A DNA stretch of 32,975 nucleotides, from positions 1 through 32,975 of the forward strand of contig NZ_JASCXW010000021.1 in assembly GCF_030012175.1 (NCBI RefSeq), read 5' to 3'. This DNA comes from Peloplasma aerotolerans. Lineage in GTDB: Bacteria; Bacillota_I; Bacilli_A; Acholeplasmatales; Acholeplasmataceae. The translations under genes and the position numbers were made by a program. Below are positions 7-5,032 of this stretch, piece after piece. Position 1 is the first letter of the stretch. The number at the start of each line of letters is the position of its first letter. The notes beneath the pieces were generated by a model. It had not been told where the DNA came from and made no database searches. It saw only the letters and a list, made by a program, of their open reading frames with translations.

Positions 7-390
7 ATGAAAAAGTTGTTGTATGTCTTCTCACTCATGTTATTATTCACGCTGTTTGCGTGCTACAGTGACCCTGTCGAATCTGAAGTTCCAACAGACC
101 CAAATCTTACTCCAGATCCAACTGAAGTTGACCCAACAGAAGATAATCTCATATATCTTACACTTGAACAACTCAGTGAGTTTGATGGAAGAGAAGGAAG
201 AAAAGCATATGTTGCTGTTAATGGAGACATATATGATGTCTCTAATTCAATATACTGGCCAAATGGTCATCATAATGGACATCAAGCTGGACAAGATTTA
301 ACTGATGCAATTCTTAATGAATCTCCTCATGGATTGGCGAATTTAAGTAGAGTGCCAATGATTGGACATATTATAGAAGATGGTGAATAA
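7..390 (+). CDS. Cytochrome b5-like heme-binding lipoprotein
   Basis: This is a 127-residue predicted lipoprotein. It has a short hydrophobic signal ending in a lipobox (LFAC, lipidated Cys19), then a Pro/Thr/Asp/Glu-rich linker (about 21-46), then a small domain (about 49-125) resembling the bacterial cytochrome b5-like heme/steroid-binding family. The region AYVAVNGDIYDVSNS followed by GHQAGQDLTDAI and SPHG is typical of that family; candidate axial heme ligands are one of His88/89/92 and His108. The protein should face outward, tethered to the membrane. The next gene, two bases downstream, encodes a membrane cytochrome-like protein, so the pair may pass electrons across the membrane. That pairing is an inference. 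Only six bases precede the start, so neither promoter nor ribosome binding site can be judged. Confidence 0.75.
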   Translation: MKKLLYVFSLMLLFTLFACYSDPVESEVPTDPNLTPDPTEVDPTEDNLIYLTLEQLSEFDGREGRKAYVAVNGDIYDVSNSIYWPNGHHNGHQAGQDLTDAILNESPHGLANLSRVPMIGHIIEDGE

Positions 391-392
391 TC

Positions 393-1031
393 ATGCAGTT
401 TGTACAAGCTAATTTTGCAGTTTTTCTCTTACCTGTTGTTTTCTTATATGTTTACTTGCTTGGTAAACATATGTTTACCCATGCGTATTATTATATTTTC
501 GGTGCTTTAATCATTACGACAATAGTTTTTTACATTGATATACCATTAATATCAAATATGATAGACCGTGGACATCTTTCATTATCTTTTTTTATTTTAG
601 TCATCTTTGCAGGTGTTTTTAAGAAAAAATCAACAATGAGCAAAATACTAAGTATATCCAGAGGTGAAAATGCGATTATAGGTTTTATATTTTTAATACC
701 ACATGCATTGAATCGATTATCTCTTGCCTTATATGGATATAATACAACTGGCTTAATCGCTTTTATCTTATTTATTCCTCTCGTCATAACATCCTTAATG
801 ATTGTTAGAAAGAAGATGAAGCCAATTCATTGGAAAAGATTACATAAGCTGAGTTATATAACTTATTTATTGATCTATATCCATATTGGATTTAATATTT
901 ATTTTAGAGATCCGTTTTATTTTGCAGTTAAACCAAATGTTTGGTTATTTCACCTCTTACCGATTTTGTATATTATCTTAAGGTTAGTCAACATCATCAT
1001 TCCTAAATATAAACAAAGAGCAGCCACTTGA
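393..1031 (+). CDS. Ferric reductase-like transmembrane (MsrQ/YedZ-type) protein
   Basis: This 212-residue protein is almost entirely membrane-embedded, with about six hydrophobic segments. Two stretches match the ferric-reductase-like/MsrQ heme-membrane family: an Arg-Gly start of a helix leading to His104 (RGENAIIGFIFLIPH), and WKRLHKLSYITYLLIYIH, containing His151 and His164, the expected heme-ligand pattern. No flavin or NAD-binding domain is attached, so it resembles the stand-alone b-type cytochrome subunit rather than a full ferric reductase. It starts two bases after the cytochrome b5-like lipoprotein gene and is surely co-transcribed with it. The likely role is moving electrons across the membrane to or from the surface heme protein; donor and acceptor are unknown. 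The TGA stop lies inside a hairpin shared with the opposing operon. Confidence 0.75.
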   Translation: MQFVQANFAVFLLPVVFLYVYLLGKHMFTHAYYYIFGALIITTIVFYIDIPLISNMIDRGHLSLSFFILVIFAGVFKKKSTMSKILSISRGENAIIGFIFLIPHALNRLSLALYGYNTTGLIAFILFIPLVITSLMIVRKKMKPIHWKRLHKLSYITYLLIYIHIGFNIYFRDPFYFAVKPNVWLFHLLPILYIILRLVNIIIPKYKQRAAT

Positions 1032-1046
1032 TGGTTGCTCATTTTT
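1018..1046. terminator. Shared hairpin between convergent operons
   Basis: GAGCAGCCA and TGGTTGCTC pair (one G-T wobble) around a five-base loop, followed by ATTTTT on the + strand. The stop codons of both converging genes lie within or next to the stem, so this probably ends transcription of the + strand cytochrome pair and contributes to ending the minus-strand operon. The minus-strand U-tract is poor. Confidence 0.6.
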
Positions 1047-1779
1047 GTTTTGGTAGAAAAAATTCAAAAACAGTATTATCATAATGTGACTTCACAAAAT
1101 CAAATTGTTCTTGAGATCTTGCTGCATAGCTGATAATAACTATGCCCTTCTTTTTTAGCTTATCTAAATACTTGTTAGGCATGTCATGGAGTCCATAACT
1201 TATAAAATCTGGTTTGGTAAATCGATTGAAAAACATTGACTTCATTAAATATTTAGAAATAGATTTCAATTCTTTATTGTTTTTAAAATACTCTGATATT
1301 TGACCTCGTATAATATAAGGATGATTTTTCTTAAACCAGCGAACAACTTTTGGATGAAATGAAAAAATCGCATAAACTCCTTGATAATCCTTCATCACTT
1401 TCATAAAGGATTGACATAATAGTAAAATATCGCCTTGAGGTTTAAGTTCGATTAATAATGGAACTTTACCATTAACTAATTTTAAAACCTCTTTAAGTGT
1501 TGGTATACGTTCATCTGAGTTTACATATCTTAAATCCCTTATCTCTTCATAAGAGACGTCACTTAATAATCTAGGGTCATTGCATAACCTTTGAAAATCA
1601 TCATCATGAAAAGATAGAACAGTTCCATCTTTTAATGCATTGACATCAAGCTCAATCGAATATCCGTGATCTAATGCGTTTTGAAATGCTTTTAATGAGT
1701 TTTCTGGGATGCTTTGGTCTTCACGATATAACCCACGATGGGCGATTAAATGATGTTGAATCCAACTTAAATCTTTCAT
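1039..1779 (-). CDS. Glycerophosphodiester phosphodiesterase (GDPD family)
   Basis: This 246-residue soluble protein has the signatures of the GDPD/UgpQ family, which hydrolyses glycerophosphodiesters (from phospholipid head groups) to glycerol 3-phosphate and an alcohol. Visible motifs are AHRG (His14, Arg15), PENSLKAF (Glu26, Asn27), ELD (Glu43, Asp45) and FHDD (His58, Asp59), which together form the metal and catalytic site. There is no signal peptide, so it is probably cytoplasmic. It is the last gene of a minus-strand operon, seven bases behind the CHR-domain pair, with a good ribosome binding site (AGGTGG) inside that gap. Why it travels with chromate-transporter genes is not obvious. 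The family assignment is strong; the exact substrate is unknown. Confidence 0.9.
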   Translation of the reverse strand: MKDLSWIQHHLIAHRGLYREDQSIPENSLKAFQNALDHGYSIELDVNALKDGTVLSFHDDDFQRLCNDPRLLSDVSYEEIRDLRYVNSDERIPTLKEVLKLVNGKVPLLIELKPQGDILLLCQSFMKVMKDYQGVYAIFSFHPKVVRWFKKNHPYIIRGQISEYFKNNKELKSISKYLMKSMFFNRFTKPDFISYGLHDMPNKYLDKLKKKGIVIISYAARSQEQFDFVKSHYDNTVFEFFLPKQK

Positions 1780-1786
1780 CTTCCAC

Positions 1787-2362
1787 CTATATGATACTGT
1801 ATATGATGATTCCTAATAAGGCTGATAACATAATGATTTTCACGGGAGATATCTTTTTATAAAATAAGGTTGTTAAAGCTACAATAACTAATATGATAAG
1901 ACCTCTATAGTTAAATACTGAGAAATCGAATTGTAGCGTATCCAAAATGATATTCGGAAAAACTGCGTGAATTAAAAGCACAAATGAAACACTTAAAATC
2001 AAACCAATAACAGCTGGCTTAAGTCCTAAAAATGCTAGCGATACACCTCTTGATTGCAAGAACTTACTACCTAAACTAGCAATTAATAAAATGATAATAA
2101 ATGAAGGTAATGCAACACCGATGGTGGTTGCTACTGCACCTAAAACACCTAACTGATTTGTTCCAATGAATGTTGCCATATTAATCGCAATCGGTCCAGG
2201 TGTCGATTCACTTATACCAATAAAATCGATTAACAGTTCAGCATCAATATAACCACCACCAACAAGCTCTTGTTGGATTAATGGAATCATTGCATATCCA
2301 CCACCAAAGGTAAATAAACCAATCTTAAAAAATATCCAAAAAAGAGTTAAGAACTCAAGCAT
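1787..2362 (-). CDS. Chromate transporter (CHR) family, half-size subunit 2
   Basis: This 191-residue membrane protein is one CHR domain. It has the family motif FGGGYAMIPL near residues 19-28 and ESTPGPIAIN further on, with six or so hydrophobic segments. CHR proteins occur either as one fused two-domain protein or, as here and in Bacillus (YwrA/YwrB), as two adjacent half-size genes that work together. Some family members export chromate or related oxyanions, but many have no tested substrate, so the label is a family name. The start overlaps the end of the upstream half gene by eight bases, with GGAGG just upstream, suggesting translational coupling and equal amounts of the two subunits. 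Confidence 0.85.
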   Translation of the reverse strand: MLEFLTLFWIFFKIGLFTFGGGYAMIPLIQQELVGGGYIDAELLIDFIGISESTPGPIAINMATFIGTNQLGVLGAVATTIGVALPSFIIILLIASLGSKFLQSRGVSLAFLGLKPAVIGLILSVSFVLLIHAVFPNIILDTLQFDFSVFNYRGLIILVIVALTTLFYKKISPVKIIMLSALLGIIIYSII

Positions 2363-2924
2363 CGTTCTTCGCCTCCTTTAAATTTGTCATAATACCATAT
2401 AAGATACCTAATAAAGCAGCACCTATAAGCACATAAATCACACTGATTTCAGTAAACATAGCGATCAATAATGATGAGATTAATATTATAACTGCAAATA
2501 TATTAAAATGAATTTTCTGAGAAAGCTTTAATGCAGCTCTAAAGATTAAAACTGCAACACCTGCTTGAATACCATAAAATGCATAAGCTACTAAATTCAA
2601 TTGTTTAAATTGAACAAGAAATAATGAGATTAAAGAAATGATTATAAATGATGGGATAATGACCCCAAGGGTTGCTAAAACACTACCTTTAAATCCTGCA
2701 ATTTTATAACCAATGAAAGTTGCTGAGTTAACAGCAAACACTCCAGGTGTTGATTCTGATATAACAAGAATTTTTAAAATATCTTCATCGTCTACCCATT
2801 GTTTTTTTTCTACGACTTCTTTTCTCATCACTGGCATCATTGCATAACCACCACCAAAGGTGAGTGCGCCAATCTTTAAAAATGTCAGGAAGAGAGCCCA
2901 TAAACTATATTCTTTTTTCATCAT
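2355..2924 (-). CDS. Chromate transporter (CHR) family, half-size subunit 1
   Basis: This 189-residue membrane protein is the partner CHR domain, with FGGGYAMMPV close to the N-terminus and ESTPGVFAVN later, matching its neighbour motif for motif. It is the first gene of a three-gene minus-strand operon (CHR, CHR, GDPD). The start at 2924 is preceded by a strong GAGGTGG ribosome binding site; a second ATG follows directly. An extended -10 promoter lies a few bases upstream. The two halves are paralogues that probably insert in opposite orientations to form one transporter; this is known for the family, not shown here. The substrate is unknown. Confidence 0.85.
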   Translation of the reverse strand: MMKKEYSLWALFLTFLKIGALTFGGGYAMMPVMRKEVVEKKQWVDDEDILKILVISESTPGVFAVNSATFIGYKIAGFKGSVLATLGVIIPSFIIISLISLFLVQFKQLNLVAYAFYGIQAGVAVLIFRAALKLSQKIHFNIFAVIILISSLLIAMFTEISVIYVLIGAALLGILYGIMTNLKEAKNDA

Positions 2925-2940
2925 GCCACCTCACCGAAAT

Positions 2941-2949
2941 ATTATAACA
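2941..2949 (-). promoter_or_regulatory. Extended -10 promoter for the CHR/GDPD operon
   Basis: Read on the minus strand this is TGTTATAAT: a perfect TATAAT preceded by TGN. No convincing -35 is visible at 17 bases, as often seen with extended -10 promoters. Transcription would start just upstream of the GAGGTGG ribosome binding site of the gene starting at 2924. Confidence 0.6.
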
Positions 2950-2977
2950 CAAAATCGTAGTGATGAATATCCTATTA

Positions 2978-2986
2978 TGTTATAAT
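2978..2986 (+). promoter_or_regulatory. Extended -10 promoter for the 5'-nucleotidase gene
   Basis: TGTTATAAT on the + strand, a perfect -10 with TGN and no clear -35. It is back to back with the minus-strand promoter about 30 bases away. Initiation would fall near 2993, downstream of an in-frame ATG at 2960, which supports translation from 3011 instead. Confidence 0.6.
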
Positions 2987-3010
2987 GTTTTTGCAAAGGA
3001 TGGTCATAAG

Positions 3011-5032
3011 ATGAAGAAAATAATAAGCATTATAAGTTTACTTTTATTAATGATACTGGTATCGGCATGTACAACAGAAGTTGGACCAAAAGATACAATA
3101 CCACCGGAAATATTAGGGTTAAGTGATATCACCTATACCATAGGGGATGATGAACCTGATTACTTAGATGGTGTCTTAGCGATTGACAATGTTGATGGAG
3201 ATGTAACCCATCAGATTATTGTTGATGATTCAGCAGTTGACTTAACAACAGTTGGGGCATATGAATTATTCTATTCCGTAAAAGACTCTTCAAATAATAT
3301 GTATAGAGTTTATGTAATGGTTTACGTAGTTGAAGAACTAATCGATCTTGATACGACACCACCAAACATAAACGGTACGAAAGATATTACCTATTATATA
3401 GGTGATGATGCACCAGACTACTTAAAAAATGTTACAGCCAATGATAATATAGATGGCAATATAACACATAACATAGTTGTTGAAGATGATACGGTAGATT
3501 TATTAAACGAAGGTGTTTATACTTTAACTTATCGTGTTTCTGATCAAGCAGGAAATGAAAGTATTGTTACGGTAACAGTTACAGTCATCAATCAAATAAG
3601 TCATATTGAATTTTTAAACATTTATCATGTTAATGATACACATGGTGCATTACTTAATGATGGAAATCAAATGGGGATTTCAAGAATTGGGAATCTTATA
3701 TTAGACGAAAAAACTAATAACCCAGATAACACTATTTTTATCTCAAGTGGAGATATGTTACAAGGTACATTAATTTCTAATTACTTTTATGGAGCTTCAG
3801 TAATAGATACATTGAATGCTAGTCAAATGGATGCCTTCACATTAGGCAATCATGAGTTTGATTGGGGGCTAGAAGTCGTTACTGAATACTTTAATCCAGA
3901 CACTGAAGGACTTAAAGCGAATTTTCCTTTATTAGGAGCGAATGTGTTTTTTAAAGGAACGACAACCAGACCAGATTTTGTTGATGCATATACCATTATT
4001 GAAAAAGGTAATGTCAAGATCGGTGTTATTGGTTTAATGGGCTTTGGTCTAGAATCCAGTATTGCAACCTCTAGAGTTGAAGATTACTATTTTGATGATC
4101 CAATTCCTTGGGCAGCATATTATGCAGAACACTTAAGAACTGTTGAGGATGTAGATATTGTTATCGTTTCTATTCATGGAAATAGTCAATTTACCAATCA
4201 AGGTATTGGTAATTTAACAGGAAATCAACGAGTTGATGTTTTATTTAATGGGCATTCGCACTCAACATATGAGACATTTATTAGTAGAAATGGTGTTGAT
4301 TTACCTATTATGCAATCAGGAGCAAATGGATCTGCAGTAGGTAAAGTTCACTTAGCATTAAATGAAAACGGAGAAGTCTTATCTTATACCGCACAAAATC
4401 TTAATAGATTTTCTGAATCTAGATTAAATACACCAAGTAGTTTAATTGATGCAGTACTTAGTGAATATTTACTTGAAGTTGATGCATTACTCAATGAGAC
4501 AATCATTATATCTGGTAGTTATTATTCTAGAAATGATTTGACAGAATATATGGCAAAACTCATTAGAACATCTGTTGATGCTGATTTCGGAATTCATAAT
4601 TATGGTGGAACCAGAGCAAGTCTCGATAGTGGTCAAAATATAACGGTAGCGACTTTATATGAAATATTTCCTTTTGATAATAAGATTAAAACAGTAGAAC
4701 TGTTGGGATCGGAGATTAAATCGTATATTTCAAACTCTGGTTCAGTCTATGTTAGTTATGGGTCAAGCTTAACTTATGAAAACATCCAAAATAATACGTA
4801 TTATTTGGTTGCGACAAACGATTATGTTTTTGATTTAACAAGTAATCCTTTCATCTATGGAGAAAATCCAATAGATACAGGTATTTTGATCAGAGATTTA
4901 TGGGAAACTGTTTTAAGAAATAGAGCAGAAATATCTAATTATTTCTATATCAATGACCCAATTATTTTAGAAATGGATGTTTATCCAACCCAGTTAGATA
5001 TTTTTGATCGAAGACAATATTTAATCATTTAA
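3011..5032 (+). CDS. Ig-repeat 5'-nucleotidase/UshA-like surface lipoprotein
   Basis: I choose the start at 3011 (673 residues): AAAGGA lies ten bases upstream, a lipoprotein signal follows at once (VSAC, Cys20), and the promoter lies downstream of the earlier in-frame ATG at 2960. Two homologous Ig-like repeats of the DUF5011 type (about 28-106 and 108-190) precede a metallophosphatase domain with NDTHG (Asp209, His211), SSGD, GNHEFD (Asn280, His281) and NGHSHS (His415, His417), which are the usual two-metal ligands. The 5'-nucleotidase C-terminal domain (about 495-640) contains GGTR and FPFDN for nucleobase and phosphate binding. It likely removes phosphate from extracellular nucleotides so nucleosides can be taken up. 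It is monocistronic, ending in a clear terminator. The Ig repeats could hold the enzyme away from the membrane or bind a surface; that is inference. Confidence 0.88.
   Translation: MKKIISIISLLLLMILVSACTTEVGPKDTIPPEILGLSDITYTIGDDEPDYLDGVLAIDNVDGDVTHQIIVDDSAVDLTTVGAYELFYSVKDSSNNMYRVYVMVYVVEELIDLDTTPPNINGTKDITYYIGDDAPDYLKNVTANDNIDGNITHNIVVEDDTVDLLNEGVYTLTYRVSDQAGNESIVTVTVTVINQISHIEFLNIYHVNDTHGALLNDGNQMGISRIGNLILDEKTNNPDNTIFISSGDMLQGTLISNYFYGASVIDTLNASQMDAFTLGNHEFDWGLEVVTEYFNPDTEGLKANFPLLGANVFFKGTTTRPDFVDAYTIIEKGNVKIGVIGLMGFGLESSIATSRVEDYYFDDPIPWAAYYAEHLRTVEDVDIVIVSIHGNSQFTNQGIGNLTGNQRVDVLFNGHSHSTYETFISRNGVDLPIMQSGANGSAVGKVHLALNENGEVLSYTAQNLNRFSESRLNTPSSLIDAVLSEYLLEVDALLNETIIISGSYYSRNDLTEYMAKLIRTSVDADFGIHNYGGTRASLDSGQNITVATLYEIFPFDNKIKTVELLGSEIKSYISNSGSVYVSYGSSLTYENIQNNTYYLVATNDYVFDLTSNPFIYGENPIDTGILIRDLWETVLRNRAEISNYFYINDPIILEMDVYPTQLDIFDRRQYLII

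Follow-up and report, generated by a model that had tools for sequence, protein, structure and literature searches.

The window, that is, the whole stretch of DNA that was analysed (32,975 nt), is the entire contig C14 of a 2.04 Mb genome assembled in 88 contigs; this assembly piece therefore holds no sequence 5' of base 1. The host is an acholeplasma relative, and two linked genes at the very beginning of the window encode a predicted outside-anchored heme lipoprotein and a predicted membrane heme protein. An in-frame TAA occupies bases 1-3, and the next ATG opens the first ORF (7-390, + strand, 127 aa); the second (393-1031, + strand, 212 aa) begins two bases beyond the stop codon of the first. 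Both ORFs confirm the arrangement described in the initial annotation, a b5 lipoprotein gene separated by a two-base gap from the gene of a membrane protein resembling MsrQ and the ferric-reductase domain (FRD). The pair comprises the following features:

7..390, + strand: gene of the 127-aa lipoprotein with a cytochrome b5 domain of cytb5M type (Pfam, sequence and fold matches)
61..63, + strand: lipobox cysteine C19 (sequence; invariant in 18/18 homologues and in 20/20 paired ones)
157..369, + strand: b5 domain, residues 51-121 (alignment to 6nzx and 6vz6)
271..273, + strand: H89, first of the two invariant histidines and likely a heme ligand (alignments; ligand role inferred)
328..330, + strand: H108, the other invariant histidine, likely also a heme ligand (alignments; ligand role inferred)
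393..1031, + strand: gene of the short FRD membrane cytochrome, 212 aa, of YedZ/STEAP type (residues, model and fold)
573..575, + strand: H61, extra histidine, predicted outer face (alignment; position from model helices)
660..662, + strand: R90, arginine replacing the first canonical heme histidine (46/46; signature from PMC3591440)
702..704, + strand: H104, equivalent to canonical His-115, putative outer heme ligand (46/46)
843..845, + strand: H151, equivalent to canonical His-209 (20/20 b5-linked, 9/26 other short FRDs)
882..884, + strand: H164, equivalent to canonical His-222, putative outer heme ligand (46/46)
951..953, + strand: H187, extra histidine, predicted outer face (alignment; position from model helices)
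1018..1040, + strand: terminator-like hairpin overlapping the 3' end of the second gene (hairpin search and fold)

The hairpin at 1018-1040 closes the pair; one such structure was found versus 0.3 expected in shuffled sequences, and the surrounding segment 1012-1050 folds at -15.8 kcal/mol. Further downstream, positions 1039-5032 carry a GDPD gene, a chromate-transporter pair and a gene for a 5'-nucleotidase-like surface protein, in an order shared with the nearest relative, G004. The remainder of the window (5584-32975) is, by eye, mostly devoted to the use of glucans and maltodextrins: the cluster includes numerous amylase-like genes along with glycogen enzymes and an ABC transporter for sugars.

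The lipoprotein scored 29.8 bits against the Pfam Cyt-b5 model (PF00173), above the curated cutoff of 23.7. Its best solved relatives by sequence (phmmer) are the archaeal b5 domains 6NZX (2.2e-16) and 6VZ6 (1.9e-11), which we take to be cytb5M structures; the same two entries head the fold matches of the b5 model, with Z scores of 12.5 and 12.2 (next row, 8.6), and share 43% and 32% identity with the window b5, respectively. The window protein is a member of the prokaryotic MAPR-like cytb5M class and not a classical b5; a rotated heme orientation is the MAPR-like feature of cytb5M proteins. The likely heme-ligand histidines, whose loss in close homologues would have refuted the reading of the initial annotation, are kept: H89 and H108 are invariant in 18/18 homologues in one alignment and in 20/20 paired homologues in another, and from these alignments they are the likely bis-His heme ligands. 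The linker between C19 and the b5 domain is modelled at low confidence. Tyrosinate heme ligation has been described for eukaryotic MAPR and CPR cytb5MY proteins (PMC10093951), in contrast to the two histidines of the window b5. For the archaeal proteins 6NZX and 6VZ6, no FRD partner was found described in the literature covered, whereas the window b5 has one.

The second ORF scored 21.3 bits against Pfam Ferric_reduct (PF01794; curated cutoff, 28) and 22.7 bits against the NCBIfam MsrQ equivalog (NF003831; cutoff, 130); despite these sub-cutoff profile scores, it belongs to the ferric-reductase superfamily by fold and residues. Within the FRD superfamily, the YedZ/STEAP branch has as its defining mark an arginine at the position of the first heme histidine of TM3, and YedZ and STEAP1 keep His-115, His-209 and His-222 (PMC3591440). 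The window protein carries the motifs R90-x13-H104 and H151-x12-H164, whose spacings equal those of the YedZ/STEAP1 signature, and thus has the R/H/H/H pattern in common with STEAP1. Forty-six short FRDs were aligned (20 b5-linked and 26 others, with the broken FRD of G212 left out). R90, H104 and H164 are invariant in all 46, and the full YedZ/STEAP signature, including H151, is present in 20/20 b5-linked proteins; at the H151 site, the others have His in 9/26 cases and Gln in the remaining 17. Two additional histidines, H61 (19/20 b5-linked versus 5/26 other short FRDs) and H187 (18/20 versus 0/26), mark the b5-linked subfamily. In the model both lie near the predicted outer face, where they may be involved in docking or in the binding of a metal or heme.

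The AlphaFold model of the membrane protein has a pLDDT of 91. Foldseek ranked STEAP2, STEAP4 and STEAP1 on top, none at E < 0.001, and the best VIA-align rows were STEAP4/2/1, SpNOX and NOX5 at Z 8.4-9.3, values that are modest for a helical protein; the three STEAPs score 8.8-9.3. Judged by the loops rich in lysine and arginine, R90 and H151 would face inside and H104 and H164 outside. The protein is predicted to be a short, single-heme member of the YedZ/MsrQ-STEAP branch. Unlike the STEAPs, it is bacterial, lacks an NADPH domain and has its b5 partner as a separate protein. MsrQ (YedZ) is similar in being a short FRD with arginine in place of the first heme histidine and a single predicted outer heme; the window pair differs from MsrQ-MsrP in that its partner is a b5 lipoprotein, its score falls far under the MsrQ cutoff and no UbiA-family prenyltransferase was found over cutoff. 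The gene identities given in the initial annotation therefore stand as b5-type and FRD/MsrQ-like, with the amendments that the lipoprotein is a cytb5M and not a classical b5, that STEAPs give the best fold matches and that the MsrQ cutoff was failed.

A short FRD gene lies directly 3' of the b5 gene in 21 distinct genomes, namely that of the window, 15 further family members, MO-XQ, G268, G293, G082 and G212. Among named records, the close relatives of the pair genes come from MAGs labelled Acholeplasmataceae, Acholeplasma, Tenericutes or Bacillota, and the pair is also found in the complete genome of Tenericutes bacterium MO-XQ (CP017948.1; phylum Mycoplasmatota). In G212 (L090:1501-2135), the FRD gene of the pair is split into two reading frames, possibly by an assembly error. 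In a relatives set of 61 genomes (the window's and 60 others), b5 matches were obtained in 21 and were clear in 20 (E < 1e-10), the match of G052 at 3e-4 being left out of the clear set. An FRD is encoded directly downstream at 16/18 single-domain b5 loci of this set; the two exceptions, G043 and G048, belong to another family of the same order, and within the window's family all 16 single-domain b5 genes found have the FRD directly downstream. The dN/dS ratios versus G004 are 0.12 for the b5 gene and 0.07 for the FRD gene, which looks like purifying selection on both. Because the FRD follows all 16 family b5 genes and both ratios are this low, the pairing is more than chance.

The link was also followed from the FRD side. 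A scan of named genomes returned 28 FRD loci; 16 of these were close (E 4e-48 or lower) and had a b5 gene upstream in 16/16 cases, 15 of them on contigs already in the 61-genome set and MO-XQ as the only new one, and the 12 distant loci had no b5 within the available flanks. In the class-wide FRD search, 34/296 genomes matched; among the best 12 loci, seven have an adjacent b5 and five show none. These five b5-less FRDs nest among the linked ones; three have 1.2-1.5 kb of upstream sequence without a b5, and L088 and L089 decide nothing because the contig ends within 320 bases upstream. Twenty further distant short FRDs had no b5 anywhere in the stretches fetched. On the tree of the 46 short FRDs, two changes account for the b5 label, compared with a mean of 15 in shuffles. 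By eye, the neighbours of the further distant FRDs are often large transporters and TetR-like genes (L155-L160 and others), which suggests another role for the same membrane cytochrome; two of these FRDs (L168, L169) adjoin cydAB-like genes, likewise by eye.

Many bacteria of this class are wall-less. A b5 model search matched 44/296 class genomes at E < 0.001, some of the matches being weak and confined to the signal-peptide region. Forty-eight b5 neighbourhoods were examined, with flanks mostly of 1.5-8 kb, and eight further clear class matches lie outside this count. The neighbourhoods contain a short FRD in 21 cases, a full-length ferric reductase of NAD(P)H type in 7 more and an NQR-like operon in 2; the other 18, G043 and G048 included, have no FRD, FRE or NQR in the available flanks, and for 4 of them fewer than 200 bases of contig remain on one side. 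Counted by genome, a full-length ferric reductase lies within ~2.3 kb of b5 in 8 genomes, one of which (G001) has a short FRD too. Four of these reductases were scanned and contain FRD and NAD domains in 4/4 cases (one FRD match being sub-cutoff) and an FAD domain in 3/4, and both two-heme motifs are present in 6/6 full-length reductases checked.

Fourteen b5 proteins are tandem forms with 2-6 domains each, amounting to 37 domains, 33 of which match a pattern with both histidines. The largest is the six-domain protein of G129 (532 aa; L129:6841-8439), a predicted lipoprotein with both histidines in every domain. Its gene and that of the three-domain protein of G104 adjoin nqrBCDEF-like operons, in which NqrF was identified by model and the other subunits by eye. 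The six-domain gene of G129 is also adjoined by a gene for a ~190-aa membrane protein without a Pfam match, and a protein of similar size occupies the same place in G104. Two-component genes lie beside several tandem forms (Pfam-checked at L137 and L139, by eye elsewhere).

Acholeplasma relatives are usually treated as simple fermenters, and the initial annotation had found an outward electron path in such a lineage unexpected. The surprise is there but smaller, as the window genome has an Rnf-like operon with ApbE and an NQR-like operon (operon names partly by eye), and RNF, complex I and cytochrome bd have been reported for an Izemoplasma isolate (PMC8397711). A flavodoxin-like gene beside that of a small FMN_bind protein was also found in the window genome. 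ApbE occurs in 37/41 and FMN_bind in 34/41 genomes searched, so neither is special to b5 bearers; their matches in the window genome lie on contigs C9, C12 and C18, with the pair on C14, and a flavinylated-MsrQ-like arrangement, with ApbE and FMN_bind in the same cluster, was not found on the available contig sequence. NqrF is present in 20/20 b5-bearing relatives versus 16/41 without b5 (one a 58-aa fragment; Fisher p 1e-6) and, outside the genus, in 5/5 b5-bearing genomes versus 11/36 others (p 0.006), an association that is inflated by kinship. UbiA was over cutoff in 0/61 genomes, with 3 weak sub-cutoff matches, so no home-made quinone donor was found; a scavenged quinone could still serve as one.

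Ferrochelatase and ALAD were each found in 0/41 genomes, so heme probably comes from outside. FecCD was detected in 13/41 genomes and not in that of the window. Cytochrome bd is present in 3/41 genomes, all of them genus-mates without a b5 match (G008, G013 and G018), which show the same ALAD, ferrochelatase and FecCD absences as the window genome. Some heme supply therefore probably exists in the genus, and the absence of FecCD does not decide on heme import, nor on the proviso of the initial annotation that its reading would fall if the genome lacked every heme acquisition route. In these members of the genus electrons have an exit of another kind; in G008 (L111:5002-15108), cydAB-like genes lie beside an NQR-like operon and a gene whose 947-aa NqrB-like product has four FMN_bind domains.

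The sequence 5' of the pair is available in G004, where it encodes an MFS transporter, a 2-oxoacid:ferredoxin oxidoreductase set and an ELFV dehydrogenase; from these neighbours, a link of the pair to amino-acid oxidation can be guessed. Of the upstream redox genes that the initial annotation proposed to look for, neither a flavoprotein nor an FMN transferase gene directly precedes the pair in G004. An FMN reductase cluster has at least 7 members near the pair among the matches listed, in genus-mates with shared gene order, and one member was Pfam-checked as PF03358; it was set aside as part of the module, as the neighbours listed for the window and for G004 do not include it. A molybdopterin MsrP domain was found in none of the five downstream window genes and five upstream G004 genes. 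A defence role was likewise set aside, the pair having no PADLOC match.

With moderate confidence, we hypothesize that the pair is a minimal outward electron-transfer module leading from a membrane heme to a surface b5; of the readings considered, the outward path already proposed in the initial annotation remains the best. Reduced flavin, or an electron derived from NQR or Rnf, would enter the FRD on the cytoplasmic side at R90/H151. The FRD would hold one heme b near its outer face, ligated by H104 and H164, where the electron would cross and pass to the lipoprotein's b5 heme (H89/H108). The lipoprotein, tethered outside by its linker, would then reduce an extracellular acceptor such as ferric iron, humics or another oxidant. 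In this scheme heme loading, topology, direction of flow, donor and acceptor are the putative parts; it is built on the two genes and how they are conserved together, on the signature residues and predicted folds, and on the links of some sister b5 genes to reductases or NQR. Speaking against it are the 18 b5 neighbourhoods without FRD, FRE or NQR, the three b5-less FRDs with upstream sequence that nest among the linked ones, the searches for UbiA, ferrochelatase, ALAD and FecCD that gave nothing over cutoff in the window genome, and the modest fold scores of the membrane protein. In E. coli, Fre feeds MsrQ, an FRD whose outer heme is freely accessible (PMC11031084); with this flavin-to-heme precedent, and with no quinone synthesis found, reduced flavin is a plausible donor. 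If the pair is indeed a conserved heme-based electron exit, outside electron acceptors would be usable by acholeplasma relatives, and b5 heme domains would do work that elsewhere falls to flavinylated proteins or multiheme c cytochromes; the system, a small one of two proteins, is directly testable.

Part of this evidence would also suit an assimilatory reductase that reduces ferric iron or surface-bound heme iron solely for uptake and not for electron disposal. STEAP metalloreductases are the best fold rows, and a b5-type lipoprotein could receive heme, which is probably external given that no ferrochelatase or ALAD was found. However, no iron or heme transporter was recognised beside the pair in the family loci (a weak test, made by eye on 45-residue ORF starts among those listed), FecCD was not found in the window genome, and electron disposal also fits the links of sister b5 genes to ferric reductases and NQR; we consider a purely assimilatory role rather unlikely. 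The lack of ALAD and ferrochelatase matches in 41 genomes is also consistent with heme handling, in which the lipoprotein would capture or store heme and the membrane protein donate or accept it with no electron export, and a eukaryotic MAPR relative, PGRMC2, has been called a heme chaperone (PMC8591507). Such a function is distinctly unlikely in our view, as the histidine pairs are kept in the tandem domains (33/37) and the linkage to FAD/NAD reductases points to redox work.

The fold likeness to SpNOX and NOX5, together with the cydAB-like neighbours seen by eye at the two other short FRDs L168 and L169, brings in oxygen or radical scavenging through a NOX-like one-electron reduction of O2. 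That role is very unlikely for a membrane protein without an FAD/NAD domain of its own, and a b5 partner dedicated to it points to a defined next step. Oxidised methionine, which the initial annotation had offered as an electron acceptor, would imply MsrPQ-like repair of surface proteins; the sub-cutoff NCBIfam MsrQ match and the shared R/H/H/H signature agree with this, but the MsrQ score of 22.7 compares with a cutoff of 130. Because the partner is a b5 and not a molybdoenzyme such as the molybdopterin protein MsrP, we draw no link to methionine repair and regard it as hardly credible.

The outward electron-transfer module has counterparts among known systems. MsrQ-like and DUF4405 cytochromes with ApbE-flavinylated partners, and the swapping of flavin and cytochrome partners, have been described (PMC8238504, PMC11334425). 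They resemble the window pair in that a membrane cytochrome is clustered with an extracytosolic redox partner, multi-domain partners among them, whereas the outer cofactor is covalent FMN in the flavinylated systems and a b5 heme here. The term 'cytochrome b5' has 0 matches in the main text of PMC8238504. A CPR operon that combines cytb5MY and two further b5 proteins with TSPO, a putative ferric reductase and a two-component element has been reported (Tamarit et al. preprint, via PMC10093951). It shares with the class studied here the association of b5 proteins with a ferric reductase, and two-component genes lie beside several tandem forms in our collection; as summarised in that source, it differs in the Tyr ligand of cytb5MY versus two histidines, the lipoprotein anchor, the tandem domains, the NQR linkage and the phylum. 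A b5/ferric-reductase/two-component operon is thus already known from CPR, and what is new here, relative to that summary, are the ligands, anchoring, lineage and tandem forms, so we count the pair as a variation on a known theme. No description of b5 with FRD in Mycoplasmatota was recognised in the open-access literature searched.

A broader and considerably more tentative proposal, which we would sooner expect to fail than to hold in full, is that the class has developed a b-heme equivalent of the multiheme c-type wires. In this proposal, cytb5M lipoproteins with 1-6 non-covalent hemes would be fed, without home-made quinone, by MsrQ/STEAP-type cytochromes, by NAD(P)H ferric reductases or by NQR directly, and would use scavenged heme to carry fermentation electrons to extracellular acceptors. 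The window pair would be the minimal form, in which H61 and H187 may serve as a relay, or as a second site for metal or heme that docks the b5. At two loci (L072:5724-5909 and L161:5534-5764), peptides of 61-76 aa with GAS/GAT motifs are encoded directly before a short FRD; these motifs resemble FMN-attachment sites, and the tiny peptides are possible minimal flavin partners of the FRD.
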